Below are positions 4,924 through 57,105 of a DNA stretch of 64,000 bases, piece by piece. Position 1 is the first letter of the stretch, and each line of letters begins with the position of its first letter. A model generated the notes under the pieces. The model saw nothing but the letters and a program-made list of their open reading frames with translations. It had not been told where the DNA came from and did no database searches. Made by a program: the position numbers and the translations under genes. This DNA comes from Planktothricoides raciborskii GIHE-MW2 (lineage in GTDB: Bacteria; Cyanobacteriota; Cyanobacteriia; Cyanobacteriales; Laspinemataceae): NCBI RefSeq assembly GCF_040564635.1, contig NZ_CP159837.1, positions 5,567,001 through 5,631,000 of the forward strand. The letters are read 5' to 3'.

Positions 4924-5340
4924 CTATTTGAGAAGTCGGACAAAACCCGCTTGCTCAAAATGATAATCATTGGTGAGTGCTTCGGTAATATTTTTTTGTT
5001 GCATAACCACAAAACTAGAACAGTCAACTAAACTCCAGTTTTTGTCTTCTCGACTGCTCAACAATTGCCATGCTTTAGTATCTGTTTCAGCGTCAATATG
5101 TAATATTTCAATGTAGGGAGATTGTCTTAAGCTTTCAACAAACGTAATAACTTGAGGTCTTGTAAGTCGTAAGGGACTGGTTAGTAATGCGACCAGTTCA
5201 GCCATGATGTAATTAGTGGTAATAATTTTGTGATTTTGTTGGCGGGCAAGTCGGTAGAGAGTTGCAGCTAGAGGATGAAACGGTTGGGATCTATCAACTA
5301 AGTTTCCCCAACCAGACGTATCTACAAAAAGTTTTGACAT
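4924..5340 (-). CDS. PIN-domain toxin (VapC family)
   Basis: 138 aa, the usual VapC length. The PIN acidic residues are visible: D in FVDTSGW (about residue 7), E in MAELVALL (about 48), D in SLVDCSSFV (about 104), and a C-terminal LTNDYHFEQAGF. VapC proteins are Mg-dependent RNases that cut tRNA or rRNA when the antitoxin is lost. The ATG directly follows the stop of the upstream antitoxin gene, giving a standard antitoxin-toxin pair. The gene looks intact. Confidence 0.8.
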   Translation of the reverse strand: MSKLFVDTSGWGNLVDRSQPFHPLAATLYRLARQQNHKIITTNYIMAELVALLTSPLRLTRPQVITFVESLRQSPYIEILHIDAETDTKAWQLLSSREDKNWSLVDCSSFVVMQQKNITEALTNDYHFEQAGFVRLLK

Positions 5341-6654: not shown

Positions 6655-7056
6655 TTAATCTATCTGTTCCAGGGGCATCAGCAAAAATTCTTCTGGTGAT
6701 ACTGCGGGAATGATGGAAGCCTCAAAATCAGGTATATTTCGGGTCACAATAACTTCTACTTCTGCGGCATTTGCCGCAGAAATCGTCACAGCATCTTCAA
6801 AGTCCGCCGTAGAGCTTTGCAATGCAGCCCTAATCACCCGATCGGTTACACTAGCAACCTGAAGATGCTGTAATAACCTTGATAAAAGCTGACGTGCTGT
6901 TTCACTGCCAACTTGACGACGCAAAATATAGAAAATATTGGTGACAGCATGACCTGAAACATACCCTTGCACTTGCATTTGTGTCACGACATTCAATGCC
7001 TGTGCAGAGGCAACAACAAATGGCTGTCTTCCAGCTAAAACATCGAGTAAAACATC
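6655..7056 (-). pseudogene. PIN-domain toxin, 5' end lost at a palindromic repeat
   Basis: The frame reads back from the stop at 6655 to DVLLDVLAGRQPF near 7056, where a VapC-type PIN domain should begin with M...DTN. Instead the frame runs into the palindromic repeat AGAAACCGGGTTTCT, encoding ETRFLG, with no in-frame ATG before it. The first catalytic Asp and the start codon are therefore missing, while the rest (DFEDAVTISAA, VTRNIPDF) is intact. The TTG at 6996 or ATG at 6978 could start only a crippled protein. It follows its antitoxin gene, so the module has lost its toxin. Confidence 0.7.
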
Positions 7057-7060
7057 ACCC

Positions 7061-7125
7061 AGAAACCGGGTTTCTATGTAGGTTTTGGTGGGGAGGCAGA
7101 CATTTCTGATAGAAACCCGGTTTCT
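7061..7125. repeat. Pair of AGAAACCCGGTTTCT palindromes
   Basis: AGAAACCGGGTTTCT (7061-7075) and AGAAACCCGGTTTCT (7111-7125) lie 35 nt apart between the antitoxin stop (7132) and the truncated PIN gene. This double-palindrome unit recurs across the window. Confidence 0.75.
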
Positions 7126-7131
7126 TTCGCT

Positions 7132-7374
7132 TCAACTGTATTTCTCCTCCAGGTAGTCCACATAAGAGTCTTTAGGCTCTTGGGAGTCTAACTGAATGAC
7201 ACCAATTAGGCTTTGAGTCCAGGGATCGAGCATTTTCAAATCATGGACATTTGGATCCGGAGAATTAGAAGCTAACGTTTCTTGTTGAATTGAACTTAAC
7301 AAGGACTGTACTAAACGCCAGCGATCTCCAATGGGTAATTCTAACGCTTGTTTTTGTAATTCTGTCAATGTCAT
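7132..7374 (-). CDS. Addiction module antidote (antitoxin)
   Basis: 80 aa from the ATG at 7374 (GGAAGG just upstream). The MTLTELQKQALELPIGDRWR start followed by LVQSLLSSI matches the addiction-module component family, in which a short helical protein neutralises a PIN or RelE toxin. The C-terminus VDYLEEKYS is typical of the partners of this PIN subgroup. Its toxin gene downstream has lost its start, so it may be an orphan antitoxin. Confidence 0.65.
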   Translation of the reverse strand: MTLTELQKQALELPIGDRWRLVQSLLSSIQQETLASNSPDPNVHDLKMLDPWTQSLIGVIQLDSQEPKDSYVDYLEEKYS

Positions 7375-7471
7375 CAGACCTTCCCAAACAATCATCAATT
7401 TCAACGATCAATTTTATCCATTAAACAATACAAACTGCCACGAAACAAGTCGGGGGATTGAACTTTCTGGT

Positions 7472-10135
7472 TTATACTTGCACCTGCTTCAAATCAAGGT
7501 TTTGATGGAAAATTTCATCAATCGGCAACATTTGCCCATCTTCGGTCATAAATTTATGGTCTTTTGTTGCCCGAATTACGCTGCCATCTTCTAGCAGATA
7601 TTCAAACACTTCTTGAGTGCCGCGATCGTGCCATTGCGCGATCGCCTGTGTATAAACAAAGCCATTGGCATCCACTGTATAAACCGTACAGTCAATTTGA
7701 TTTTCCACAATTTTGCCAATCGGCAGCGATCCATATTCCACCGTCATAATTTCCGTCTCATAAGTTAAGCAATATTCGGCAAACAATACCATTTGATCGA
7801 ATAAAGCTTCTGCCACTTTATGCGGCACCCCATTCTTAGTAGAACCATCCACAAAAATCTCCCGATGCTTCTGCATTTCCGAGACTTTTTTCTTACCCAT
7901 TGCCCGTCGCAATAAGTCCGCTTGACCCAAAGAATAGCCCGCTAAATCTTGAGCAATTTTCATAATTTGCTCTTGATAAACCATCACCGCGTAGGTTTCT
8001 TCTAAGATAGGTTCTAATAGCTTATGATCGTAAACGATCGCCTCTTCACCATGCTTGCGGTGAATAAACTTGGGAATCAGACCGGCATCCAAAGGCCCCG
8101 GACGATATAAAGCCAAAATCGAGGAAATATCCTCAATACAAGAAGGTTTTAAATCCCGCACAATTTGCCGCATTCCTTCAGATTCCAACTGAAAAATACC
8201 TTCTAAATCCCCTTTTTCAAACAAATGATAGGTTTCGCCAACATCTTTAGGAAACCTTTGTTCCCCCGTGCGTTTAATAATTTCTTGTGCTTTTCTTTCC
8301 TGGGCAGGAAAATTATATGGGTCTAGTCTTTCCCCGGTTTTTTTCTCAATATAATCTAGGGTTTTCTCAATCGTGGTGAGATTTTTCAAACCCAAAAAGT
8401 CCATCTTTAACAAACCCAGAGATTCCAGATTTTCCATAGAATACTGGGTAATCACTGCCCCTTCATTATTCCGTTGTAACGGCACAATTTCATCCAGGGG
8501 TTGCGCGGAAATCACCACCCCGGCAGCATGAACCCCAAAAGTTTTGTTGGTGCCTTCAATTCTGATCGCCATATCCAACCATTGCCGCACGGAAATGCTG
8601 CCAATTTCTACATCTTGATCGTTCTTTAAGGGAATAATTTCTGTTTCGTAGGCTTCTTTAAATTTCGGTTCGGGGGTATCATCAGAAATCATCACCGAAA
8701 GTTTCGCCGGTTTGCCCCGCGCAACGGGAATCATTTTCGCCATTTCATCGGCTTTCTTATAAGGAACGCCCAAAACTCTGGCTACATCTTTTAACACCGC
8801 TTTCGAGGTCATGCGGTTAAAAGTGATAATCTGGGCAACCCGATCTTCCCCATATCTTTCGGTGACATATTGAATCACGCGATCGCGTTTTTCAATACAA
8901 AAGTCCGTATCAATATCCGGCATTGACTTCCGTTCGGGATTGAGAAATCGCTCGAATAATAACCCATGATGCACCGGGTCAATATTGGTAATTCCCATCG
9001 TATAAGCGACCAAAGAACCCGCAGCGGATCCTCTTCCTGGCCCTACGGGAATATGATTATCTCTGGCAAATTTAATATAGTCCCAAACTACTAAAAAATA
9101 AGTGGAAAATCCCATCCGTTCAATCATTTTTAGCTCATATTCTAGCCGTTCTCGATAAACCGGAGGAATTTCCGATCGCGTCTTGGCATTTAAGCGGTCT
9201 AGAAGTCCTTGCCAAGCAATTTCTTCCACATAAGTATCGGCAGTGTGACCGGAGGGGACAGGAAAATCAGGGATGCGCGGTTCCCCTAACACTTTATACT
9301 CTTCAATTTTATTCGCTACTTCTACGGTATTCGCGATCGCGTCAGCAATCACATCATCGGGCAAATGATCGCGAAATAAATGTTTCATCTCTTCAGCGGA
9401 CTTTAAATATTCAGTCCCGCTATAGCGCATTCGCTTTTCTTCACTAATCAGCTTTTGGGTATTAATACAAATCAAAGCATCGTGGGCTTCCACATCATTA
9501 CAAGAAATAAAATGGGAGTCGTTAGTCGCCACAATTTTTACATTTAGTTCGCGGGATATTTTCACCAGTTCCACATTGACAATTCGGTCTTCTTGATAGC
9601 CGTGGTCTTGGATTTCTAAATAATAATCATCCCCAAAAACTTCTTTATACCATTTGACGATTTCCCTGGCTTCTGCTAATTTCCCTTGTAAAATATTTTG
9701 GGGAACTTCTCCACCCAAACAGCCGCTAGTCACGATTAAATCATCGTGATATTTTTGCAATAACTCTTTATTAATACAGGGTCGAGCAAAAATGCCTTTT
9801 CCCTGCATTCCATTTAAATGAGATTCGGTGGTTAACTTGACTAAGTTTTTATAACCTTGGGTATTTTTGGCTAAAACCACTTGATGATATTTGCGAACTT
9901 TCTGGGTCGTACCCAATGGCCCATTAATCACATACATTTCATTGCCAATAATGGGCTTAATACTTTTACCCCGGCAAGTTTTAATCAGGTCGATCGCCCC
10001 ATACATCACCCCATGATCCGTCAGGGCGATCGCGGGCATTTCTAACTCAATGGCTTTGGCAACTAATTGGGGGACTTGAGAAGCCCCATCAAGTAAACTG
10101 TAATCGGTATGAATGTGTAAACCAGCAAAAGACAT
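7472..10135 (-). CDS. dnaE: DNA polymerase III alpha subunit, N-terminal part with split intein
   Basis: 887 aa from the ATG at 10135 ([17 protein letters not shown]); the 28-codon upstream extension is repeat sequence. A PHP domain comes first, then the C-family polymerase core with the catalytic MPDIDTDF region. After about 788 residues the extein ends at FAEY and a 99-aa N-intein begins with Cys ([14 protein letters not shown]). Cyanobacterial DnaE is made from two separate genes joined by protein trans-splicing; the dnaE-C half is not in this window. The product is the replicative polymerase catalytic subunit. Confidence 0.95.
7475..7771 (-). other. N-terminal half of the DnaE split intein
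   Basis: It begins at Cys1 (TGC at 7771-7769) right after the extein sequence AEY and ends VQV before the stop. Block B is seen as [14 protein letters not shown] (T..H). It is 99 aa, about the normal size for naturally split cyanobacterial DnaE inteins. The C-intein must be supplied by a distant gene. Confidence 0.93.
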
Positions 10136-48393: not shown

Positions 48394-49545
48394 ATGTTTG
48401 GTAAATTTGGTAAAAAAGTTCAATTTAATCGCCATGAAATCGCGGGCAGTTTCGGGGATATCGGTACTGACTTACCCTTAATTGTCGGCATGATTCAAGC
48501 CGTTAATTTAAACAGTGCCAGTGTCTTTATTATCTTTGGTATTTCTCAGATGTTCGCCGGGTTTTTCTATGGCTTACCCATGCCCATGCAGCCCCTGAAA
48601 GCGATGGCAGTATTAGTGATTACCCAAAAAGTACCTGGGGAAATTTTGTTTGGTGCCGGTTTAGCTATTGGCATTTTTATGCTGATACTTACCCTCAGTG
48701 GGGGTCTGAATTTACTGGCTCGGTTGATTCCGTTATGTGTGGTTCGAGGGCTTCAATTTGGCTTAGGACTTTCCTTAGCATCCCTAGCTCTCAAAACTTA
48801 TATTCCCTCAGCAGGAATTCCCGGCTATATAATCGCCGCTTTAGGATTTTTAATTCTGATTACTACCCCAAAATCTAGTCGGATTCCCGCTGGGATTGCG
48901 GTGATTTTATTGGGATTACTATATGCGGGATTGTTTAGTTTAAACTTTCAGGAGATCGGGTCAAATATTGGGTTAGCAATTCCCGAATTTTATCAGCCGA
49001 AATGGTCAGATATTTTGACTGGTTTTGTGATTTTAGCGTTACCACAAATTCCTTTGTCAATTTCCAATTCTTTGATTGCGACGGAGCAGACGGTAAAAGA
49101 TTTGTTTCCAGAGCAAAGGGTTTCCATTAGACGAATTGGTCTGACTTATGCGATCGCGAATGTAATTGCACCTTTTTTTGGCGGAATTCCGGTGTGTCAT
49201 GGGTGTGGCGGTTTAGCGGGTCATTATGCCCTCGGTGCCCGCACGGGGGGTTCCGTTATTTTATATGGTTCAATGTATTTGATTATTGGCTTATTTTTTA
49301 GCCCAGTTTTTGGCGAAGTTGTGCAAGTTTTCCCCCAGCCAATTTTGGGAGTAATTCTTTTATTTGAATCTTTAACCTTGCTGTTATTGATTGCTGACCA
49401 AGCTGCGGAACGAAGCAAGTTTATAATTGCCTTAATTGTGGGGCTTTTTGCTTTGTTAGTGCCTCAAGGTTATATCCTGGGAATGATTATTGGTACAGGA
49501 CTTTATTATTTATCCAACCGATTAACTTTTTTTACGCAAATGTAG
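48394..49545 (+). CDS. MOT1-type molybdate/sulfate transporter
   Basis: 383 aa with about ten hydrophobic helices. The family signature is clear: EIAGSFGDIGTDLPLIVGMI at 13-32, GLPMPMQPLKAMAVLVI at 63-79, and VCHGCGGLAGHYALGARTGG near 272. It resembles plant and algal MOT1 molybdate carriers and bacterial homologues. Molybdate is needed by nitrate reductase, which fits the nitrate genes nearby, but sulfate cannot be excluded. A 10-bp tandem repeat lies in its leader. Confidence 0.87.
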   Translation: MFGKFGKKVQFNRHEIAGSFGDIGTDLPLIVGMIQAVNLNSASVFIIFGISQMFAGFFYGLPMPMQPLKAMAVLVITQKVPGEILFGAGLAIGIFMLILTLSGGLNLLARLIPLCVVRGLQFGLGLSLASLALKTYIPSAGIPGYIIAALGFLILITTPKSSRIPAGIAVILLGLLYAGLFSLNFQEIGSNIGLAIPEFYQPKWSDILTGFVILALPQIPLSISNSLIATEQTVKDLFPEQRVSIRRIGLTYAIANVIAPFFGGIPVCHGCGGLAGHYALGARTGGSVILYGSMYLIIGLFFSPVFGEVVQVFPQPILGVILLFESLTLLLLIADQAAERSKFIIALIVGLFALLVPQGYILGMIIGTGLYYLSNRLTFFTQM

Positions 49546-49738
49546 GTGTTAAGGAATCTGGAATTTCCGCCCCAGGGCTTTACCCCCGCGCAGGTTTCGC
49601 GCCTTCGCGGGAACCGGATTTGGTATTATTTTAAATCTCGCTATTGTGGTAAAAGCAACGGAGAACCCGGTTTCTTGGTTTGACCGCGTTGACTGTAAGT
49701 TATAATAGGGAAAATTTCAACAGACGAAATCAACGACT

Positions 49739-50005
49739 ATGAATTTTTATACGGTTATTTTAAGAAAAAGCCAAGAATATTGGGTTTCATTATGTTTAGA
49801 GAATGGCTTAGTTGGGCAAGGCAATAGTCCAGAAGAGGCGATTGATCGACTTCAAGAAGCGATCGCCTCTATGGAAGAGATATATCAATCAGAAAGTGAT
49901 GTTTATTCTGGATCTATATCAATTCAAGAACTCCATGAATTTTTAACCATAGAAGACCAAGAGGAAAAAACAGATGTTTATGAATTGAGGAAAGTGTATG
50001 CCTAA
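49739..50005 (+). CDS. hicB: HicB-type antitoxin
   Basis: 88 aa with the HicB fold: FYTVILRKSQEYWVSLCLEN, then GQGNSPEEAIDRLQEAIASM. It lacks an obvious C-terminal DNA-binding domain beyond the short acidic tail. Its last codons overlap the first codons of hicA by 8 bp, so the two are translationally coupled, here in the antitoxin-first order common in cyanobacteria. Confidence 0.82.
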   Translation: MNFYTVILRKSQEYWVSLCLENGLVGQGNSPEEAIDRLQEAIASMEEIYQSESDVYSGSISIQELHEFLTIEDQEEKTDVYELRKVYA

Positions 50006-50237
50006 AAATATACCTGCCCTCAAACCCAAACAACTGATTAAAATTTTGGAAAAAGCCGGTTGTGAATTTTATCGAGAAGGAAAAGGAGACCATTCTTTAT
50101 ACATTCGAGAGTTTCAAGACCTAAAAAGAATTGTGCCGATTGATATGGGGGCAAAAGAAATGTCTCCTGCTTATGTTTTAAGAATTTTTAGACAATTTGG
50201 TTTCACCGATGAGGAAATTGAAATTTTCATTAAATAA
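49998..50237 (+). CDS. hicA: HicA-type mRNA interferase toxin
   Basis: 79 aa, normal for HicA/YcfA. The double-stranded-RNA-binding-like fold is seen in LKPKQLIKILEKAGCEFYR, followed by GKGDHSLYI with the catalytic His, and the C-terminal YVLRIFRQFGFTDEEIEIF. HicA cuts mRNA when HicB is degraded. Palindromic repeats lie immediately after it. Confidence 0.85.
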   Translation: MPKNIPALKPKQLIKILEKAGCEFYREGKGDHSLYIREFQDLKRIVPIDMGAKEMSPAYVLRIFRQFGFTDEEIEIFIK

Positions 50238-50248
50238 TCAGCGTGGAG

Positions 50249-50322
50249 TCTCAGAAACCGGGTTTCTTATTTTAAATCTCGGTATTGTGGCAAAAATTGG
50301 AGGCAGAAACCCGGTTTCTTGG
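50249..50322. repeat. Palindromic AGAAACCGGGTTTCT pair after hicA
   Basis: AGAAACCGGGTTTCTT (50252-50267) and AGAAACCCGGTTTCTT (50305-50320) with a 37-nt spacer. Same family as at 7061, 32127 and 58565. Confidence 0.75.
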
Positions 50323-50352
50323 TTTCTTTGCCGTTATTTACGCGATCGTCAA

Positions 50353-51723
50353 TCAATCTTGGCAATAATTTCTCACATATTCACTAAATACTGGAGACAA
50401 TTTAAACAAAATTTTATCTGACTTAATTTTTGTAACTATATATCTGTATTGTAAAGATTGTAAACCCTTAACAAAATCCACTGAAGACAAAGCTAAATTT
50501 TCTTTTAACTCTTCTCTCGACATAGGTCGATCTAATTTACTGAACTCTAAAATTATTTGCTGTTCTATTGGTGACAATCTGTGAAATAAATTATTAAAAC
50601 AAAATTGCATATTTTGAGTAATAACCAAGCTATTTTCTGCCAAAAAATCTGCTGCATCACCATCATAAACATCTTGAATTAACCTGGCAATATCTTTTAA
50701 GTAAGTGGGATTACCTTGATAAAGCTGAATTAATTTTAACCAACTATCTTGATTATTTAAACCTGTATTGTCTAAAATATTAATGTCATCTAAACCTAAT
50801 AATTCTAAAGCTTTAACGGGATATAGGCGATCGTCTAAACATTGCATCTCAGCACATTTTTCTTGACTGATTAATATAATATTACTTTGATGCTCTGTTT
50901 CAGCGATCGTTGTGAAAAACTTTTGATAATCTTTAGATTCAGCTTGATATTGTCCAGCAAATTGTCCCGGAGTAAAGATATGCTGCACATCATCAATAAT
51001 GATTAAACATCGCTTTTCTTTTAATAAAGTTAATAACTGGCAAACCGGCGAATTATTTAAATTTTCTGGAGTTTCAACTGTGGTTAATATTTCGGCGATA
51101 ATTTGATTTAAGGAGGGAGTTAATTCAAGATTTTTCCAAATAATGACTTCAAAGCTATCTAAGTTTAAATCAATAAATCTTCTCACTAAAGAAGTTTTGC
51201 CAATTCCTGATAATCCTAAAACCGAGATTAAAGGAGTATTTTGATTAAATATCCAGTTATAAAGGGTTTGTAATTCAGTTTCTCTGTTAGAAAATTTGAT
51301 TACTTTAGGCGCTAAGATTAAATCGCGATAAGCTGATATTGACTTCTTATGAGGCTCACTTTTTTGAGTATTATTTTTTTGAAAATTATTGTCTAATATC
51401 TGTGGAGGATATACATTATTATTTCCATTAATATTATAAACATTTAAAGAATTGTCACATGATTGAATATATACTCTTTCTAATACAGAGCGACAATTAG
51501 TTTTTTTTATATCCTCACCTAAAGCTTCAGACAAAAGTTTCCATAAGTCACCCCCCACTTCACCAACATGACTTTTATTAAAATGATTCTTTTCGCCAAT
51601 CTCATTATAGGTGTCTCCTTCATAAGATCCTTTAACCACAGCCCTCTGCACATCATCGAGGTGTTTTCCGGTGTGTTGATAAACTAGGCCATCCACAAAT
51701 TGTAAAATTTCCGTTACATTCAT
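50353..51723 (-). CDS. NB-ARC/STAND ATPase with vMAP-type N-terminal HTH domain
   Basis: 456 aa from the ATG at 51723. Residues 1-95 (VTEILQFVDGLVYQHTGKHL, DVQRAVVKGSYEGDTYNEIG) match the vWA-MoxR-associated N-terminal domain of cyanobacterial signalling ATPases. The NB-ARC domain follows: Walker A VLGLSGIGKTSLVRRF near 170, Walker B RCLIIIDDVQHIF near 243, and a winged-helix-like end (SREELKENLALSSVDFV). It reads away from the graspetide genes; a regulatory link is possible but unproved. Confidence 0.8.
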   Translation of the reverse strand: MNVTEILQFVDGLVYQHTGKHLDDVQRAVVKGSYEGDTYNEIGEKNHFNKSHVGEVGGDLWKLLSEALGEDIKKTNCRSVLERVYIQSCDNSLNVYNINGNNNVYPPQILDNNFQKNNTQKSEPHKKSISAYRDLILAPKVIKFSNRETELQTLYNWIFNQNTPLISVLGLSGIGKTSLVRRFIDLNLDSFEVIIWKNLELTPSLNQIIAEILTTVETPENLNNSPVCQLLTLLKEKRCLIIIDDVQHIFTPGQFAGQYQAESKDYQKFFTTIAETEHQSNIILISQEKCAEMQCLDDRLYPVKALELLGLDDINILDNTGLNNQDSWLKLIQLYQGNPTYLKDIARLIQDVYDGDAADFLAENSLVITQNMQFCFNNLFHRLSPIEQQIILEFSKLDRPMSREELKENLALSSVDFVKGLQSLQYRYIVTKIKSDKILFKLSPVFSEYVRNYCQD

Positions 51724-51928
51724 AAAAGCCATATAGGGTAAAGGTTACAACTATTATAGCTTACCTTGATCCCGATTTTTCCGTATTTTTCCGTATTTTT
51801 GCTTAACACTTTGTAACAAAACACCCGTAAAAATCCGTTTTTTTGGTATTGGAATCAGAGCAATAAGTAGATTATCTTGATAAAAACTAGGTTTAAGCTA
51901 GAAACAAAGGACGAAAGGATAATCAAAT

Positions 51929-52159
51929 ATGAAAACAGCAACACCAATCGCAATGCTTACCCGTGATGAATTTGATCTGGAAAAAAGAGGATATGAACCT
52001 ATACCCGATCAATGGGATTATAATCCCAAAACTCAAGTTTCATCATTAATAGAAATGGGAGGACCAAGTGAACCTACTACAACAAGTTCAGTAGCGGGTA
52101 CAACTGGCCTAATTAATACCGATAGCGATAACTCTAATGATGATAAAGGTACTGATTAA
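51929..52159 (+). CDS. Candidate graspetide precursor peptide
   Basis: 76 aa. The leader (about 1-45) is charged: TRDEFDLEKRGYEP, then DQWDYNPKTQVSSLIEMGGP. The C-terminal part has Thr/Ser donors (SEPTTTSSVAGTTG, residues 47-60) followed by many acids (DSDNSNDD, 65-72; last residue D76), the composition needed for ester or amide rings. There is no PFFARFLE-type leader motif and no TxKYPSD core, so it is not a microviridin. GNAT and ATP-grasp genes follow. The precursor role is inferred from size, composition and position. Confidence 0.7.
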   Translation: MKTATPIAMLTRDEFDLEKRGYEPIPDQWDYNPKTQVSSLIEMGGPSEPTTTSSVAGTTGLINTDSDNSNDDKGTD

Positions 52160-52180
52160 AATGAGATTTTAATTCTTCTA

Positions 52181-52208
52181 GGGTGGTTCTATCTATTCTT
52201 AGAACCAC
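52181..52208 (+). promoter_or_regulatory. Hairpin between graspetide precursor and enzyme genes
   Basis: GGTGGTTCT (52181-52189) pairs perfectly with AGAACCACC (52200-52208) across a 10-nt loop, followed by a weak TTGATAAAAT. As in many RiPP operons, a partial terminator or processing hairpin here could raise precursor output over enzyme output. Confidence 0.6.
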
Positions 52209-52237
52209 CTTGATAAAATACAATTTTAGCATTAAAT

Positions 52238-52804
52238 ATGTTTCAAAATCTACAACTTAGAAACGCTGTAGCTGAAATAGATCGGGAATTTTATCTAAAG
52301 TGTTTTTTATCTGATAAGTGGTCATTACCATTTGACTTAAATTTACATAATCCTAATCTTGATAAAGAACAATATATAAATCAAAAAATTTATGGTCAAT
52401 ATCCAGATGTCAATCGTCTGATGGTTTATGATTTGAAAACTCTTAGCCAAATTGTTTTTGGTAATATTTTAATAGAAGATCGTCAAACAAAAAGATGTTC
52501 TTTAGTTGGAGGAGTCGATCCAGATTTACTAGCTAAAGGTTATGGATCGGTTGGACTTTACTTTTTTCTAAAATATATTTTTTTAGAAATGAAAATGAAT
52601 AAAGTTACTTGTCAAGTTTATAGTTTTAACTTTCCGAGTTTTCAACTATTAGCAAGTTCTGGCTTTCAATTAGAAGGAATTTTAAGACAACACGCTTTTA
52701 ATTATATTACACAAGAATTTGTAGATGTCAAAATTTATTCTTTGCTAAAAAATGAATTTCTTGATAGCCGTATTTGTCAAACATTCGCCAAATTAAATTA
52801 CTAA
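52238..52804 (+). CDS. GNAT-family acetyltransferase of the graspetide cluster
   Basis: 188 aa. The GNAT fold is visible: GVDPDLLAKGYGSVGLYFFL (acetyl-CoA-binding region with GxG) near 90-109, and the C-terminal NFPSFQLLASSGFQLEGILR near 143-162. Microviridin clusters contain a GNAT (MdnD) that acetylates the peptide N-terminus; a similar tailoring step is likely here. It ends 8 bp before the ATP-grasp gene, in the same operon. Confidence 0.75.
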   Translation: MFQNLQLRNAVAEIDREFYLKCFLSDKWSLPFDLNLHNPNLDKEQYINQKIYGQYPDVNRLMVYDLKTLSQIVFGNILIEDRQTKRCSLVGGVDPDLLAKGYGSVGLYFFLKYIFLEMKMNKVTCQVYSFNFPSFQLLASSGFQLEGILRQHAFNYITQEFVDVKIYSLLKNEFLDSRICQTFAKLNY

Positions 52805-52812
52805 AGAATATT

Positions 52813-53793
52813 ATGTCAAAACAAATAATTTTAATTGTAACTTCTAAAGAAGATTCTCATGCGGATTTAGTGATTTATAAACTTAATCACCGTAATTTAC
52901 AAGATAGAGTCATCAGATTAAATACAGAAGATTTGTGGTCAAACACAGAAATAACAAGTAATGGTTCTGATTTTGATGTTAAAATTGTTGATTCTCAACG
53001 TATTTTTAACAGTCAAGATGTTTTAAGTGTCTGGTTTAGAAGACCAAAAGATATAGAAGTTTCTCATTTGGAAGAAGGAAGTCAAGCCTTTATTAAATCT
53101 CAATGTAATGCTCTTTTAAGAGGACTTTATTTTTGTACTCATGATACAGCAATGTGGGTTAATCCTTTACCTTCTCTCCATCGAGCTAGAATTAAATTAC
53201 AACAACTACAATTAGCTAAAAAATTAGGTATAAAAATCCCGAAAACTTTAGTGACAAATAATCCTCAAGAAGTGCTTAATTTTTTTGAAAAAAATCCAAA
53301 AGTTTGCACAAAAAGTTTAGATGAGCCTAGTTTTGAAATTGATGGACATATTTTTCCTTTTTATACTCGTCTTATTGATATTAATGAAGTTAAAGACAAT
53401 ATAGAAGGAATAAAAATTTGTCCTACTTTATTTCAAGAATATATAGAAAAAACTTATGAGTTAAGAATTAATGTTATTGGCGATCGCATTTTTGCTTTAG
53501 CAATATATTCTCAAGATAACGAGCTTTCTCGGATTGACTTTAGGGGGTTATCACCAGCAAACATGAAACAAGAATTAGTAGAAATTCCTGATATTTTAAA
53601 AAAACAAATTTTTCAATTTGTTAACCATCAAGGCTTAGTTTTTTCAGCAATGGATTTTATTGTTACTCCTAATAATGAATATATTTTCCTAGAAAATAAT
53701 TGTAATGGTCAATGGCAATGGGTGGATGAAGTTGCTAACGGAAAACTAAGTGAAGCAATGATTGATTTATTGTTAATATCAAAAGTCAAATAA
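52813..53793 (+). CDS. ATP-grasp ligase, MvdC/MvdD-type graspetide synthetase
   Basis: 326 aa from the ATG at 52813. An N-terminal MvdD-pre-ATP-like domain has VWFRRPKD (73-80). The ATP-grasp core follows: KIPKTLVTNNPQEVL, the FQEYIEKTYELRINVIGD strand (about 212-229) with ligand-contact residues, and the Mg-binding end MDFIVTPNNEYIFLENNCNG followed by QWQW (about 285-308). The NxNGQW form is the hallmark of peptide-modifying graspetide ligases. It should join Asp/Glu side chains of the precursor to Ser/Thr or Lys. There is only one ligase. Confidence 0.83.
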   Translation: MSKQIILIVTSKEDSHADLVIYKLNHRNLQDRVIRLNTEDLWSNTEITSNGSDFDVKIVDSQRIFNSQDVLSVWFRRPKDIEVSHLEEGSQAFIKSQCNALLRGLYFCTHDTAMWVNPLPSLHRARIKLQQLQLAKKLGIKIPKTLVTNNPQEVLNFFEKNPKVCTKSLDEPSFEIDGHIFPFYTRLIDINEVKDNIEGIKICPTLFQEYIEKTYELRINVIGDRIFALAIYSQDNELSRIDFRGLSPANMKQELVEIPDILKKQIFQFVNHQGLVFSAMDFIVTPNNEYIFLENNCNGQWQWVDEVANGKLSEAMIDLLLISKVK

Positions 53794-53796
53794 GTT

Positions 53797-53879
53797 TGTA
53801 GGGTGGGCAATGCTTTTTTAATGTTTTATTATCACTAACAATTTAGATACACTGCCCACCTTAAATTTACATTGTAGGG
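53797..53879. repeat. GTAGGGTGGGCA hairpin element after the graspetide operon
   Basis: TGTAGGGTGGGCA and TGCCCACCTT enclose an unrelated interior, followed by TTGTAGGGGCATGACAAC and a matching GCCCC later. It belongs to the family at 1735 and 6508. Confidence 0.5.
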
Positions 53880-54079
53880 GCATGACAACATCAAATATGA
53901 TACATACAGTTAAATTTTAAAATATCATGCCCCAATTTTGTGATTTAAATCATTAATTTAATTATCAATTATTGATGGGTTTGGGCATCGCATTTTTTAG
54001 GTTATTTATTAGTAAAATAAGAATAAATTAACGATGCCATGCTGCTACATTTGTTAAAAATCAGTTGATTAATAAAATT

Positions 54080-54485
54080 TTATAAATCCACCCAATTCTC
54101 TAAATTCAAACCCTCAACCCTAGCTAAGTCAGTATCATTAGAAACCACAATTAAATCTTTAATTATCGCAGTCGCCGCAATTAAAATATCCTCAGTTTGA
54201 ATCGGTAAACCCCTTAATCTCAGGTTAGCATGGATTTCAGCAGCTTTTTCTAATATTGCCAAATCATCTAAAAGAATAATCGGATATCTGTGACAAAAAT
54301 CCTCAAATCTTGCCCGTTGTTTAGGAGCATCAACAGCTAAAAATCCTCTCCTAATTTCAAAATAAGTTATGCAACTCATAAAGATGCTTTTTCTTTGAGC
54401 TTTAAGTTCTCTAATTTTTTGATTAATTGAGATATTATTCTTAATAGCTAAAAGAAACAATATTAGTATCAAATAAGTAATCCAT
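54080..54485 (-). pseudogene. PIN-domain toxin, copy 1 (frameshifted)
   Basis: From the ATG at 54485 the frame reads MDYLFDTNIVS and then shifts by one extra T near 54456; the rest (SCITYFEIRRGFLAVDAPKQ, ILIAATAIIKDLIVVSNDTD) is almost identical to the intact copy at 54971. An upstream start read through the shifted frame gives an unnatural N-terminus. All later catalytic acids are present, but the first Asp block is out of frame, so it is inactive unless slippage occurs. Confidence 0.75.
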
Positions 54486-54491
54486 GATCGC

Positions 54492-54788
54492 CTATTTTCG
54501 TTTAATCGCGTCTTCAAAAATTGCCATTTGTTCGGGAGTAAAATTTTCTCCAATCTTTGATAAAAGTTCTATGGCTAATATGCCACGTGAATGTTGTTTC
54601 AATTCTTCATCTGACATACTATTAAACTCATCAAAAGGTAAATTATCTTCAAATAACTTAACTAAAAGCTTTACCATTTCTGAATAATTCAGATCCTCCT
54701 TGAATAAAGGATCCTCTTCCATCAAAAGGGAAACGATATTTTCAATTCTTTTAACCATTGATTCTTGTCTAATATCTGTTGATAACAT
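54492..54788 (-). CDS. PIN-toxin antitoxin, copy 1
   Basis: 98 aa from the ATG at 54788, preceded by GAGAGGTAAT. MLSTDIRQESMVKRIENIVS starts an acidic helical protein ending in EQMAIFEDAIKRK. It is about 70% identical to copy 2 at 55378; the divergence is mostly in the middle. It does not match a standard VapB DNA-binding motif that I can see. It lies 6 bp upstream of the frameshifted toxin. Confidence 0.6.
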   Translation of the reverse strand: MLSTDIRQESMVKRIENIVSLLMEEDPLFKEDLNYSEMVKLLVKLFEDNLPFDEFNSMSDEELKQHSRGILAIELLSKIGENFTPEQMAIFEDAIKRK

Positions 54789-54970
54789 AATTATTACCTC
54801 TCTACCGTTGATGACTATTATATCAGGTTTTTGAATTTTCGGCCATATCATGCGATAATGCGATCGCTCATCTATCCTAACATAGACATCTCCAAATATC
54901 CTTGCGGTTACAATTATCACTAATTACCATTATTGGTAAGAGAATTGTTAGGGTTAGGGGTGCGATCGCT

Positions 54971-55375
54971 TTATAAAGCTACCCAATTCTCTAAATTCAA
55001 ACCCTCAACCCTAGCTAAATCAGTATCATTAGAAACCACAATTAAATCTTTGACTATCGCAGTCGCCGCAATTAAGATATCTTCAGTTTGAATCGGTAAA
55101 CCCCTTAATCTTAAATTAGCATGGATCTCGGCGGCTTTTTCTAAAATTGCCAAATCATCTAAAAGAATAATCGGATATTTTTGACAAAAATCCTCAAATC
55201 TTGCCCGTTGTTTAGGAGCATTAACAGCTAAAAATCCTCTCCTAATTTCAAAGTAAGTTATACAGCTAATAAAAATATTTTCTTCTTTAGCATCAACAGC
55301 TAAAATTTTTTGCAAAATTTGAATATTTTGCTTAATTGCCAAAGACACGATATTAGTATCTAATAAATAATTCAT
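54971..55375 (-). CDS. PIN-domain toxin, copy 2 (intact)
   Basis: 134 aa. The full PIN set is present: D7 in LLDTNIVS, E in YFEIRRGF, D in TEDILIAATA, and D in SNDTDLARVEGL. It starts 2 bp after its antitoxin. It is a VapC-type RNase toxin, and the only complete toxin of the three related copies in the block 54080-56205. Confidence 0.82.
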   Translation of the reverse strand: MNYLLDTNIVSLAIKQNIQILQKILAVDAKEENIFISCITYFEIRRGFLAVNAPKQRARFEDFCQKYPIILLDDLAILEKAAEIHANLRLRGLPIQTEDILIAATAIVKDLIVVSNDTDLARVEGLNLENWVAL

Positions 55376-55377
55376 AA

Positions 55378-55674
55378 TTATTTCCGTTTAATTGCGTCTT
55401 CAAAAATAGCCATTTGCTCAGGGGTAAAATCTTCACCTATTTTAGCCAAAACTTGTACCGCCATCATTTTATCACAACGATTTTTTAAGCTTTCCTCTGA
55501 TATACTATTAAATTCTTCAAAAGATAAGCATTTCTCAAACACTTCAGCTAAGTGTGCCACGATTTCTGAATAATTCAGATCCTCTTTGAATAAAGGATCT
55601 TCCTCCATCAAAATGGAAACGATATTTTCAATTCTTTTAACTATTGATTCTTGTCTAATATCTGTTGATAACAT
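55378..55674 (-). CDS. PIN-toxin antitoxin, copy 2
   Basis: 98 aa from the ATG at 55674, where AGGTACTAATT precedes it. Starts MLSTDIRQESIVKRIENIVS and ends EQMAIFEDAIKRK, like copy 1. The middle (LAEVFEKCLSFEEFNSISEE) differs, perhaps for partner specificity. Probably neutralises the intact toxin 2 bp downstream. Confidence 0.62.
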   Translation of the reverse strand: MLSTDIRQESIVKRIENIVSILMEEDPLFKEDLNYSEIVAHLAEVFEKCLSFEEFNSISEESLKNRCDKMMAVQVLAKIGEDFTPEQMAIFEDAIKRK

Positions 55675-55881
55675 AATTAGTACCTCGCTACTGTTGATGA
55701 CTATTATATCAGATTTTTTAATTTTCGGCCATATAATGCGATAATGCGATCGCTCATCTATCCTAACATAGACATCTCCAAATATCCTTGCGGTTACACT
55801 TATCACTAATTACCATTATTGGTAAGAGAATTTTTAGGGTTAGGGGTGCGATCGCTTGTTTGTGGGAAAAGTGCGATCGCT

Positions 55882-56205
55882 TTATAAGTCTGACCAATTC
55901 TCTAAATTTAACCCCTTAACTCTGGCTAAATCAGTATTATTAGAAACCACAATTAAATCTTTGACTATCGCAGTCGCCGCAATTAAAATATCTTCAGCTT
56001 GAATCGGTAAACCTCTTAATCTTAGATTAGCACGCCACTTGGCGCCAGTTGACGCCACTTGCTCTACTTGGGGAGACCCCAAGACCGCAGTGGCTTCTCT
56101 ACTTGGGGAGACCCCAAGATCGCACTGGCTTCTCTACTTGGGGAGACCCCAAGACCGCAGTGGCTTATGAACTTCGGCGGCTTTTTCTAAAATTGCCAAA
56201 TCATC
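55882..56205 (-). pseudogene. PIN-domain toxin, copy 3, split by a repeat insertion
   Basis: The C-terminal part (RGLPIQAEDILIAATAIVKD, LARVKGLNLENWSDL) is colinear with copy 2. It is then interrupted by a 140-bp insert (about 56031-56172), after which LDDLAILEKAAE continues near 56174-56205 and the match ends. No antitoxin copy follows. It is dead. Confidence 0.72.
56031..56172. repeat. Insert of three 35-bp tandem repeats within PIN copy 3
   Basis: A short palindrome CGCCACTTGGCGCCAGTTGA is followed by three copies of a 35-bp unit around CTTGGGGAGACCCCAAG, itself a hairpin. The flanks match the intact gene copy up to the insert on both sides. Confidence 0.8.
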
Positions 56206-56250
56206 TCCTAGGGAAGGGGCAACGGGGTGTGGAGCAGAGGGGCAGAGGAT

Positions 56251-56345
56251 CTTCTGGTGCTTCTGGTGCTTCTGGTGCTTCTGGTGCGGGGGAGAGCAAC
56301 CAAAGAATCCCTACCCAAAGAATCCCTACCCAATAATCAATAATC
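56251..56345. repeat. CTTCTGGTG minisatellite and CCCTACCCAAAGAAT repeat
   Basis: A 9-bp unit CTTCTGGTG occurs four times at about 56251-56284, then CAAAGAATCCCTACC twice and AATCAATA three times. No gene. Confidence 0.7.
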
Positions 56346-56358
56346 AATAACCAATAAC

Positions 56359-56388
56359 AAAAGGGCTCAGATTACTCTGAACCCTTTT
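56359..56388 (-). terminator. Rho-independent terminator of the small peptide gene
   Basis: AAAAGGGTTCAGA-GTAA-TCTGAGCCCTTTT on the minus strand, with 12 nearly perfect pairs and a T-rich end. It lies 56 bp after the 44-aa ORF at 56444-56578. Confidence 0.75.
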
Positions 56389-56443
56389 GCATAATTTTGA
56401 AAAATAAAAGTTGCCATTTGTTTAATAGCGAAAATTAAAGGAG

Positions 56444-56578
56444 CTAATCAACCGCAAGCATGGATAAAACTTGAGATAAGTTCATATTAACGCTGGTCGA
56501 AGCTTTCGGCGGACTCAGGTTGAGGACTAACTGAAGTAAGCCGGTAATAATCGCCGCTTGAATAAATTTTTGTAACAT
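56444..56578 (-). CDS. Candidate 44-aa small protein with hydrophobic N-terminus
   Basis: The ATG at 56578 follows a GGGAG site at a suitable distance. The frame reads MLQKFIQAAIITGLLQLVLN then LSPPKASTSVNMNLSQ and ends LAVD. The N-terminal half is one hydrophobic segment and the rest polar, like a small membrane or exported peptide. It has its own ribosome site and terminator, which supports real expression, but I know no family. Confidence 0.5.
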   Translation of the reverse strand: MLQKFIQAAIITGLLQLVLNLSPPKASTSVNMNLSQVLSMLAVD

Positions 56579-56599
56579 AATTGGGTGTCTCCCATATCA

Positions 56600-57105
56600 G
56601 AGCAGTATCAGCCAGAAACTCTATATAAATAGAATGTAGAAAATACTCATAAGTTTCAGACCCCGTTATGTGCCACTGTTTCAAGTGGCTAACGGTAATG
56701 ACACTCCCTCAAACCGGGCTACCGGGGAAAATATTCTTTTTTTATTGCCCGTTCAGACCATCTCTAGCGATCGCCATTCTCGCAAAAAGGAGGTAAGTCA
56801 TAAGATTAATCTCAGTCTACGCCACTGGAAGTCATCAAAACTGATGCCTGAATCACAAAAATGATTAGAATTTGAGTGGACGAGGCGCAGGTCTTGGGTG
56901 GGCGAGGGTGGGCGAGGGTGGACGAGGGTGCAGAAAACAAAGATCATATTAAACTACACTGGACAATCTCTCGACTGGCACTGACAAAGGATTACTCAAT
57001 GGTTCCGTTAGTGGATGCAGTCGAGGGAAAATTTTCCTAAGAGGGAGTATCAATTATACATACTATAACATAGTACATAAGGGGTTTCACCTATCATCGG
57101 AGAAA
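56600..57105. other. Intergenic region with GGCGAGGGTG minisatellite
   Basis: Nothing coding is supported. At 56897-56931 a 10-bp GGCGAGGGTG unit occurs about four times. The stretch 57050-57090 is AT-rich and may hold a promoter. Confidence 0.4.

Follow-up and report, generated by a model that had tools for sequence, protein, structure and literature searches.

A candidate graspetide cluster of Planktothricoides raciborskii and its probable control by a divergent NLR-like STAND protein

We analysed a window of 64,000 nucleotides (contig NZ_CP159837.1, positions 5,567,001 to 5,631,000) from the 7.2 Mb, one-contig genome of the filamentous cyanobacterium Planktothricoides raciborskii GIHE-MW2, in which three plus-strand genes stand in a row within window positions 51929-53793: those of a 76-aa precursor peptide, a 188-aa GNAT protein and a 326-aa ATP-grasp ligase. 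We are highly confident that this is a cluster for a graspetide, that is, a ribosomally synthesized and post-translationally modified peptide (RiPP) with ester or amide crosslinks, because the ligase profile matches solved synthetases and because an Asp-rich precursor with a common leader accompanies every one of the 13 cyanobacterial ligases in the clade. It also seems probable from the sequences that the cluster is an operon under a divergent NLR-like switch, a STAND protein with a putative helix-turn-helix (HTH) and an NB-ARC domain, and about equally probable that this protein is a DNA-binding regulator of the cluster that acts through an array of 10-bp repeats. The initial annotation, which described the three-gene row, missed the divergent gene, which is the most unusual part of the cluster, and the array.

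The ligase gene (52813-53793, plus strand, 326 aa from an ATG; an in-frame TTG start at 52774 would make it overlap the GNAT gene) encodes a putative graspetide synthetase. Its scores against the curated models are all below their cut-offs, given here in brackets: TIGR04187, 221.9 bits (350); MvdC, 179.5 (425); MvdD, 168.7 (475). The Pfam cut-off was passed by ATPgraspMvdD, at 28.5 bits (27), and also by GSH-S_ATP. A profile of six relatives matches the solved synthetases AMdnB (1.1e-58), CdnC (1.9e-56) and 7drm (1.2e-13), as well as the solved chains 5ig9, 5ig8 and 9bou, and D281, E294 and N296 are invariant among six relatives. Near the C-terminus lies LENNCNGQW, the MvdC/MvdD-type LENNxNGQW end that the initial annotation had reported, and its statement that the cluster has a single ligase also holds, the second ATP-grasp of the genome being 1.85 Mb away and very divergent. 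That second ligase (L046, 6486-9344, with small open reading frames (ORFs) upstream) was set aside as a clade member on account of its very long branch. In a maximum likelihood tree of 98 ligases (four of 102 rows were dropped by the program), the window ligase falls into a clade of 13 cyanobacterial members and Elusimicrobia L063, with support of 98/91, separate from MvdC, from MvdD, from the Bacteroidota and proteobacterial clades and from six Streptomyces TgmB; the program gave a warning that the L063 row is long. The 13 cyanobacterial loci are the window and 12 fetched ones (L043, L044 and L053-L062), among which window/L053 and L056/L057 are near-identical pairs. The record of L056 is titled as a Flavobacterium UBA8409 metagenome-assembled genome (MAG), and given the near-identity of its contig to the cyanobacterial L057, this bin is probably contaminated. 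Among plasmids, 38 records match the ligase, the 30 listed being at 27-33% identity.

The precursor gene (51929-52159, plus strand) encodes the acidic peptide described by the initial annotation, with its TTTSS and TTG blocks followed by an Asp-rich end. Whether so small an ORF would be conserved had been named beforehand as a point on which that reading could fail, and the ORF is found again, followed by GNAT and ligase genes as in the window, in three further records from cyanobacteria: Planktothricoides sp. SR001 (L053), Dolichospermum UHCC 0259 (L054) and the Nostoc S4 MAG (L055), with precursor identities of 93%, 75% and 69-71%, respectively. SR001 is the closest named record, and its ligase is 100% identical (rounded). 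Because of this recurrence, and because dN/dS (0.205/0.78 against Dolichospermum, 0.285/1.79 against Nostoc S4) indicates purifying selection, the precursor is, on the comparative sequence evidence, a real gene. When 388 genomes from the order were searched with it, three matches were credible (the window genome, the same-species genome G011, and G619); three further matches, with E ~0.006 and internal stops, were treated as chance, and a search of plasmids gave no match.

Comparison with SR001, a strain of the same species (51929-52159 against L053 5117-5347), separates the two parts of the peptide sharply. The leader (codons 1-45, 51929-52063, ending in IEMGG) has no nucleotide difference in 135 bases, and all ten differences lie within codons 46-77, that is, in the core and stop (codons 46-76 plus stop, 52064-52159; PSEPTTTSSVAGTTGLINTDSDNSNDDKGTD). 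The differing codons are 54, 57, 61, 64 and 68, and all five change the amino acid, giving path-averaged counts of 9.67 non-synonymous and 0.33 synonymous differences, relative to 1 and 3 in the ligase gene and 4 and 3 in the GNAT gene (Fisher p 0.012 for 10 N/0 S in the core against 5 N/6 S in ligase and GNAT). Four of the five changed codons differ by 2-3 bases, beside the identical 135-base leader. Such a pattern could reflect either strong selection or recombination with another allele. Weighing against much being made of it, the core counts are small and the adjacent non-coding DNA also differs from SR001 (5/78 and 9/196 bases), so that the 10/96 bases of the core stand above the nearby non-coding level, not far above it. 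Among the window, SR001, Dolichospermum and Nostoc S4 precursors the core residues T50, T51, S53, T58, T59, D65, D67, D71, D72, K73 and D76 are invariant and the spacer residues between them vary; fixed Thr/Ser and Asp with changing loops would fit rings formed between Thr/Ser and Asp.

Across the clade, an Asp-rich small precursor with a common leader pattern was found in 13 of 13 cyanobacterial loci and in L063; the initial annotation had held that ligase homologues without a nearby acidic small gene would speak against it, and none of the 13 is of that kind. We scanned 90 loci for a leader in two parts, with P[FI] separated by 12-45 residues from [YL][DN][PA] and Q, and for a tail with Asp after it; this combination was present in 12 of 12 fetched clade loci and L063, and in 3 of the other 77 loci (L083, L128 and L132, all Bacteroidota). 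In 15 precursors P6 and Y31 of this leader are invariant and P33 and Q36 are conserved in at least 90%. The cores are of three types: PTT.S.VA.TTG..DSD..NDDKG.D, which accompanies the GNAT; STS.[KR][KR]ST..G..D-rich; and [TS][TS].TY..[TS]..acidic..D. Neither the microviridin leader PFFARFLE nor a TxKYPSD-type core had been seen by the initial annotation, and our comparisons agree: PFFARFLE is absent from the window precursor and from the clade scan (L053-L062, L043 and L044), and TxKxPSD from the window and clade precursors, a TWKRPSD in L055 (at 2700) lying outside its precursor (5002-5247). Six other cyanobacterial ligase loci carry PFFARFLE and seven carry TxKxPSD.

At the position of PFFARFLE the sister precursors have PFTLNFVE, PFTLCFLEE or PFAMLFAVE, blocks of a PFTLxFxE or PFAMLFAVE form that are related to PFFARFLE. 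The second leader element, a Y/L-[DN]-P-x-T-Q..EM block, has a counterpart in TgmA of Streptomyces (hhalign P 3.4e-4, probability 38%; with a wider alignment, P 7.8e-4, probability 25%). The clade leader, read at the level of sequence, is thus a mixture of microviridin and TgmA features. Was the initial annotation then right to propose a new graspetide group? In part: the ligase clade stands apart from MvdC, MvdD and TgmB, but the leader resembles that of the TgmA family, and the clade may already be one of the published numbered groups.

Between the precursor and GNAT genes there is, as had been claimed, a hairpin (52182-52209, plus strand; GGTGGTTCTA..TAGAACCACC) with a perfect 10-bp stem and no T run 3' of it; the whole 78-nt spacer has a minimum free energy of -22.6 kcal/mol. 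Perhaps it lowers expression of the enzymes relative to the precursor. Its conservation is a weaker point, since at the other loci it is imperfect (SR001), only analogous (Dolichospermum) or not evident (Nostoc S4). The GNAT gene noted in the initial annotation (52238-52804, plus strand, 188 aa) is assigned from two matches below cut-off (Acetyltransf_3, E 0.0013; PseH, 3.7e-8) and from an AlphaFold2 (AF2) model built on four sequences (mean pLDDT 75.7), with which Foldseek aligns many GNAT structures, among them 1yre PA3270 and SpeG, the best at E ~1e-9, so the fold is predicted to be that of a GNAT.

Divergent from the precursor, at 50353-51732 on the minus strand, lies the gene of the 459-aa STAND protein; most aligned relatives begin at its Met4. 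The protein scores 35.5 bits against Pfam NB-ARC (cut-off 23.5) and also passes ATPase_2; its profile finds the NB-ARC domains of plant NLRs and the STAND protein PH0952, and its AF2 model (mean pLDDT 76.3) is matched by Foldseek to wheat resistosomes (9h2l, Sr35), CED-4 and Apaf-1. The N-terminal ~90 residues are predicted to form five helices, and in six of seven paralogues scanned this domain gave GerE, Sigma70_r4 or HTH_23 matches, below cut-offs, at about residues 21-57. In the window and 10 of the 12 fetched loci of the clade, i.e. 11 of 13, a gene of this family (P0004) stands divergent to the precursor gene. L043 stands outside the 10 because the match in its linkage search was its own protein: in the STAND position it has a LuxR-type HTH, TPR-bearing, STAND-like protein with a weak P-loop match and 23% identity to a family STAND over 249 residues (E 7e-6). 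No STAND match occurs among 66 non-cyanobacterial ligase loci, and one occurs among 11 other cyanobacterial ones, namely L045, a decayed copy of the cluster. In L045 (G142, 6992-7677) STAND residues 286-312 abut a ligase match without its first 122 residues. The locus of the second ATP-grasp, L046, has a divergent protein (P0010) with a related HTH domain and no NB-ARC part.

Upstream of the STAND gene, at 51772-51802, is a tandem array of ~10-bp units, CCG-ATTTTT/CCG-TATTTTT/CCG-TATTTTTGC, which is the probable operator of the STAND protein; a possible -10 box of the STAND gene (TATAAT, 51753-51758, minus strand, a match to the consensus) adjoins it, and a second CCG-spaced block, CCCGTAAAAATCCGTTTTTTTGG, is read at 51824-51846. 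At lag 10 the window array matches itself in 18/20 positions (p 0.003 by shuffling, the minimum with 300 shuffles). A coarser shuffle test gave p<0.05 in 6/10 graspetide rows, 28/37 paralogue rows and 21/40 rows from other genomes; because 10/30 window controls also passed, which counts against the array as evidence, we replaced this test with a lag spectrum, the best 20-base self-match within 180 bp upstream of STAND genes at lags 5 to 21, compared with 122 control upstream regions. Mean lag-10 self-match is 14.4 in 37 paralogue rows, 14.5 in 40 other-genome regions and 14.7 in 10 graspetide loci (which contain two near-duplicate pairs, L044 and L055 being outside the set), against 10.4 in the controls. 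At lag 20 the STAND sets reach 12.4-13.0 and the controls 9.8, an increase of at most ~1 is seen at lags 9 and 11, and the remaining lags are near control. A self-match of at least 14/20 at lag 10 is found in 25/37 paralogue rows (24/36 distinct), 24/40 other-genome rows and 9/10 graspetide rows, and in 9/122 controls; upstream of the LuxR-type protein of L043 there is no lag-10 signal.

The repeat units differ among STAND paralogues, and the similarity of their HTH regions tracks that of their arrays once similarity in the NB-ARC has been taken out (r 0.28, p 0.0005, n 32 in a partial Mantel test), as would be expected of private operators. Several observations weigh against a DNA-binding regulator. 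NB-ARC similarity likewise tracks array similarity once the HTH is removed (r 0.23, p 0.004), so shared descent explains part of the relationship. The HTH assignment is weak, with Pfam E values from 0.0007 to 0.24, all below cut-off, a best Protein Data Bank (PDB) match to GerE at E 0.36, and no HTH match at all for the N-domain of L178; no sensor repeats were recognised in the STAND protein. The 12.9-kb locus L055 has no STAND match, and in L058 a stop codon at residue 310 breaks the STAND gene.

What else do proteins of this family accompany? The window genome has 67 matches to the STAND protein, fragments included, of which we fetched 40 regions (L161 and L175 are one gene) and ran family searches on the divergent proteins of 16, picked by reading with RiPP-like ones first. 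RiPP-type enzymes occur in five of the 16: a RiPP radical S-adenosylmethionine (SAM) C-methyltransferase above cut-off, at 754 bits (L172); a peptide hydroxylase (HExxH model, above cut-off) with a methyltransferase (L145); a cyclophane-type radical SAM enzyme and an HExxH hydroxylase above cut-off, next to two peptides of 58 aa that carry WRDFSSHN close to the end (L159); a radical SAM enzyme accompanied by a protein that weakly resembles a GNAT (L142); and a radical SAM enzyme beside a Cys-containing peptide of 60 aa (L143). In L142, L143 and L159 the radical SAM family models are below cut-off and Pfam Radical_SAM is above it. A C39 peptidase neighbours the STAND gene of L165, and other cargo comprises a GTPase (L147), a helicase (L168), a formyltransferase-like protein (L162), and repeats or proteins of no family. 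For the next 40 homologues in other genomes, taken without G000, G011 and a copy from G632 that has two stops, and typed by ORF reading and short motifs, neighbours are RiPP-like in 7/40: a CxxxCxxC and HExxH pair in L212, L213, L219 and L220, a 58-aa peptide with a 464-aa ORF in L237 and L249, and, by eye, a Nif11-like peptide in L226. ORFs that by eye resemble DNA methyltransferases are divergent to the close STAND homologues of L211, L231, L232, L234, L241 and L243, which suggests other cargo for the same family. We had considered a regulator dedicated to RiPPs and rejected it because many paralogues face other cargo; the members of the family seem to regulate cassettes in general.

These comparisons leave several alternatives to be weighed. 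That the ligase adds free amino acids in the manner of RimK, or couples the peptide to another molecule, and forms no side-chain rings is very improbable: the RimK Pfam score (25.7 bits, cut-off 21) would allow it, but the MvdD pre-ATP-grasp domain is above its cut-off, the match to solved macrocyclases is strong and the precursor pattern is graspetide-like. A more serious candidate, which we nevertheless consider unlikely, is that the precursor belongs to the actinobacterial TgmA/GRASP_targ family, was transferred and lost its methyltransferase, in which case the peptide chemistry would not be new. The likeness of YNPKTQ..IEMGG to LDPETQ..MEMPG speaks for this, as do TIGR04187 being the best ligase model and the alignment of the Nostoc S4 precursor to positions 22-71 of the 72 in TIGR04186 (E 0.071, 13.2 bits, cut-off 25). 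On the other side, the cut-offs of TIGR04186 and TIGR04187 are not reached, the window precursor has no TIGR04186 hit, and the clade ligases are separate from six Streptomyces TgmB. Furthermore, a reading of the ORF lists, with no model search run, gave no isoaspartyl methyltransferase (TgmC) in window 49000-57000 or the clade loci, nor any unexplained ORF of methyltransferase size in that interval. As for the GNAT, it is not core to the clade because no homologue was found in 9 of 13 cyanobacterial loci, a point against its place in the pathway; its confinement to one sub-clade and the general acetyltransferases (e.g., SpeG and PA3270) that are its closest folds would suit an enzyme of self-protection or one unrelated to the peptide. 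We regard this as rather unlikely, for the gene order is kept in the window, SR001, Dolichospermum and Nostoc S4, and in the STAND-linked operon of L142 the partner of the radical SAM enzyme also bears a weak resemblance to a GNAT (E 0.001-0.009, below cut-offs).

Did the STAND gene come to lie beside the cluster by chance, as an autonomous gene for defence or one regulated by itself, with the array controlling it alone? The array does adjoin the possible promoter of the STAND gene itself, and many family members in the window genome stand beside very different genes. We judge this decidedly unlikely nonetheless, because the window and 10 of the 12 fetched loci of the clade contain a STAND gene as against 0/9 other intact cyanobacterial ligase loci (seven of them with TxKxPSD cores), and because the arrangement persists in L043, where the STAND-like protein is of another, LuxR type.

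If the STAND protein is a regulator of the cluster, its HTH-like domain would bind the 10-bp array with one protomer per helical turn, and ATP binding and oligomerisation by the NB-ARC core would change the activity of both divergent promoters. The precursor would be made in excess, and the hairpin may reduce the message for the enzymes. Judging from the chemistry of the family, the single ligase would recognise the leader, phosphorylate the side chains of core Asp residues and link these to the hydroxyl groups of Thr/Ser, so that esters in a ring-in-ring arrangement would connect the N-terminal T/S block with the C-terminal D block; Lys73 may form an amide. We infer that the precursor is cleaved after the GG of IEMGG, which a general double-glycine peptidase could do: the surroundings of the cluster gave no C39 peptidase, and two C39 matches lie in other parts of the genome, within ORFs of 715 and 220 aa. 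The GNAT may then acetylate the new N-terminus or another group. The product would probably be a protease inhibitor or antagonist with diversifying loops; an immune or weapon role is speculative.

A wider proposal, which we put forward tentatively as possible rather than probable, is that cyanobacteria possess numerous related NLR-like switches of minimal build, which bind DNA and consist of HTH and NB-ARC without sensor repeats, each on a private 10-bp operator with its protomers stacked on one face of the DNA and each firing a divergent cassette, here a diversifying crosslinked peptide. Should this be true, an apoptosome-like switch would deploy a RiPP as a weapon. The cluster connects a class of crosslinked peptides among natural products with the NLR-like ATPases of cyanobacteria, and if the array is the operator, it would offer a simple sequence mark for finding switches and their cargo, silent RiPP clusters included, and a small testable model of NB-ARC control over DNA. 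Why might this association have been overlooked? The survey of 174 graspetide precursor families counts neighbours in the same transcription direction, so that a divergent regulator would be passed over, and the sections consulted name no STAND or NB-ARC protein (PMC8939145). Another study adds 19 groups to 24 graspetide groups, and the words STAND, NB-ARC and NACHT are absent from its main text (PMC13097080). Among open-licence papers we found no published link of NB-ARC with microviridin, ATP-grasp RiPPs or cyanobacterial radical SAM enzymes.

The neighbourhood of the cluster holds further small genes. Window 49739-50237 contains ORFs of 88 and 79 aa that by eye resemble a HicB/HicA pair. 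On the minus strand, 54080-56082 carries tandem small two-gene units that by eye resemble PIN-domain toxin-antitoxin systems, some apparently broken, and similar ORFs occupy the equivalent place in SR001.

Set beside known systems, the cluster shares with microviridin biosynthesis (MdnB/MdnC, MvdC/MvdD) the ATP-grasp family and, in the sister precursors, a PFTLxFxE-type block in the place of PFFARFLE; a GNAT (MvdB) is also part of microviridin clusters. The differences are that microviridins have two ligases whereas there is one here, in a separate clade, and have PFFARFLE and TxKxPSD whereas the clade precursors have neither and possess an extra Y[DN]P.TQ leader element. The Streptomyces tgmA/tgmB/tgmC system (TIGR04186/04187/04188), which is linked to the graspimiditides, is similar in its one ligase, its [DN]P.TQ leader block and the succession of an EM block, a Thr/Ser-rich and an Asp-rich part of the core. 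It differs in that our sequences do not reach the TIGR04186 and TIGR04187 cut-offs, in that the ligase clade is distinct, and in the presence here of GNAT and STAND genes.

For the switch itself, the STAND transcription factors MalT and AfsR likewise join a DNA-binding domain to a STAND ATPase. In the P. raciborskii protein, by contrast, the HTH-like domain is N-terminal, sensor repeats are not recognised, the upstream repeats have a 10-bp spacing, and the NB-ARC core is closest in the PDB to plant NLRs and CED-4. TRADD-N proteins that are joined to an HTH of ECF-like type have been described (PMC8195603). The nearest precedent is found in the FxSxx-COOH systems, in which, according to passages of PMC7159879, a processed small peptide is coupled genetically to an AP-ATPase of the STAND class, the AP-ATPases of the actinobacterial systems being described there as effectors with TPR or TIR parts. 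The cyanobacterial arrangement differs from these in having a 459-aa HTH-STAND protein with an iterated repeat upstream of its gene.

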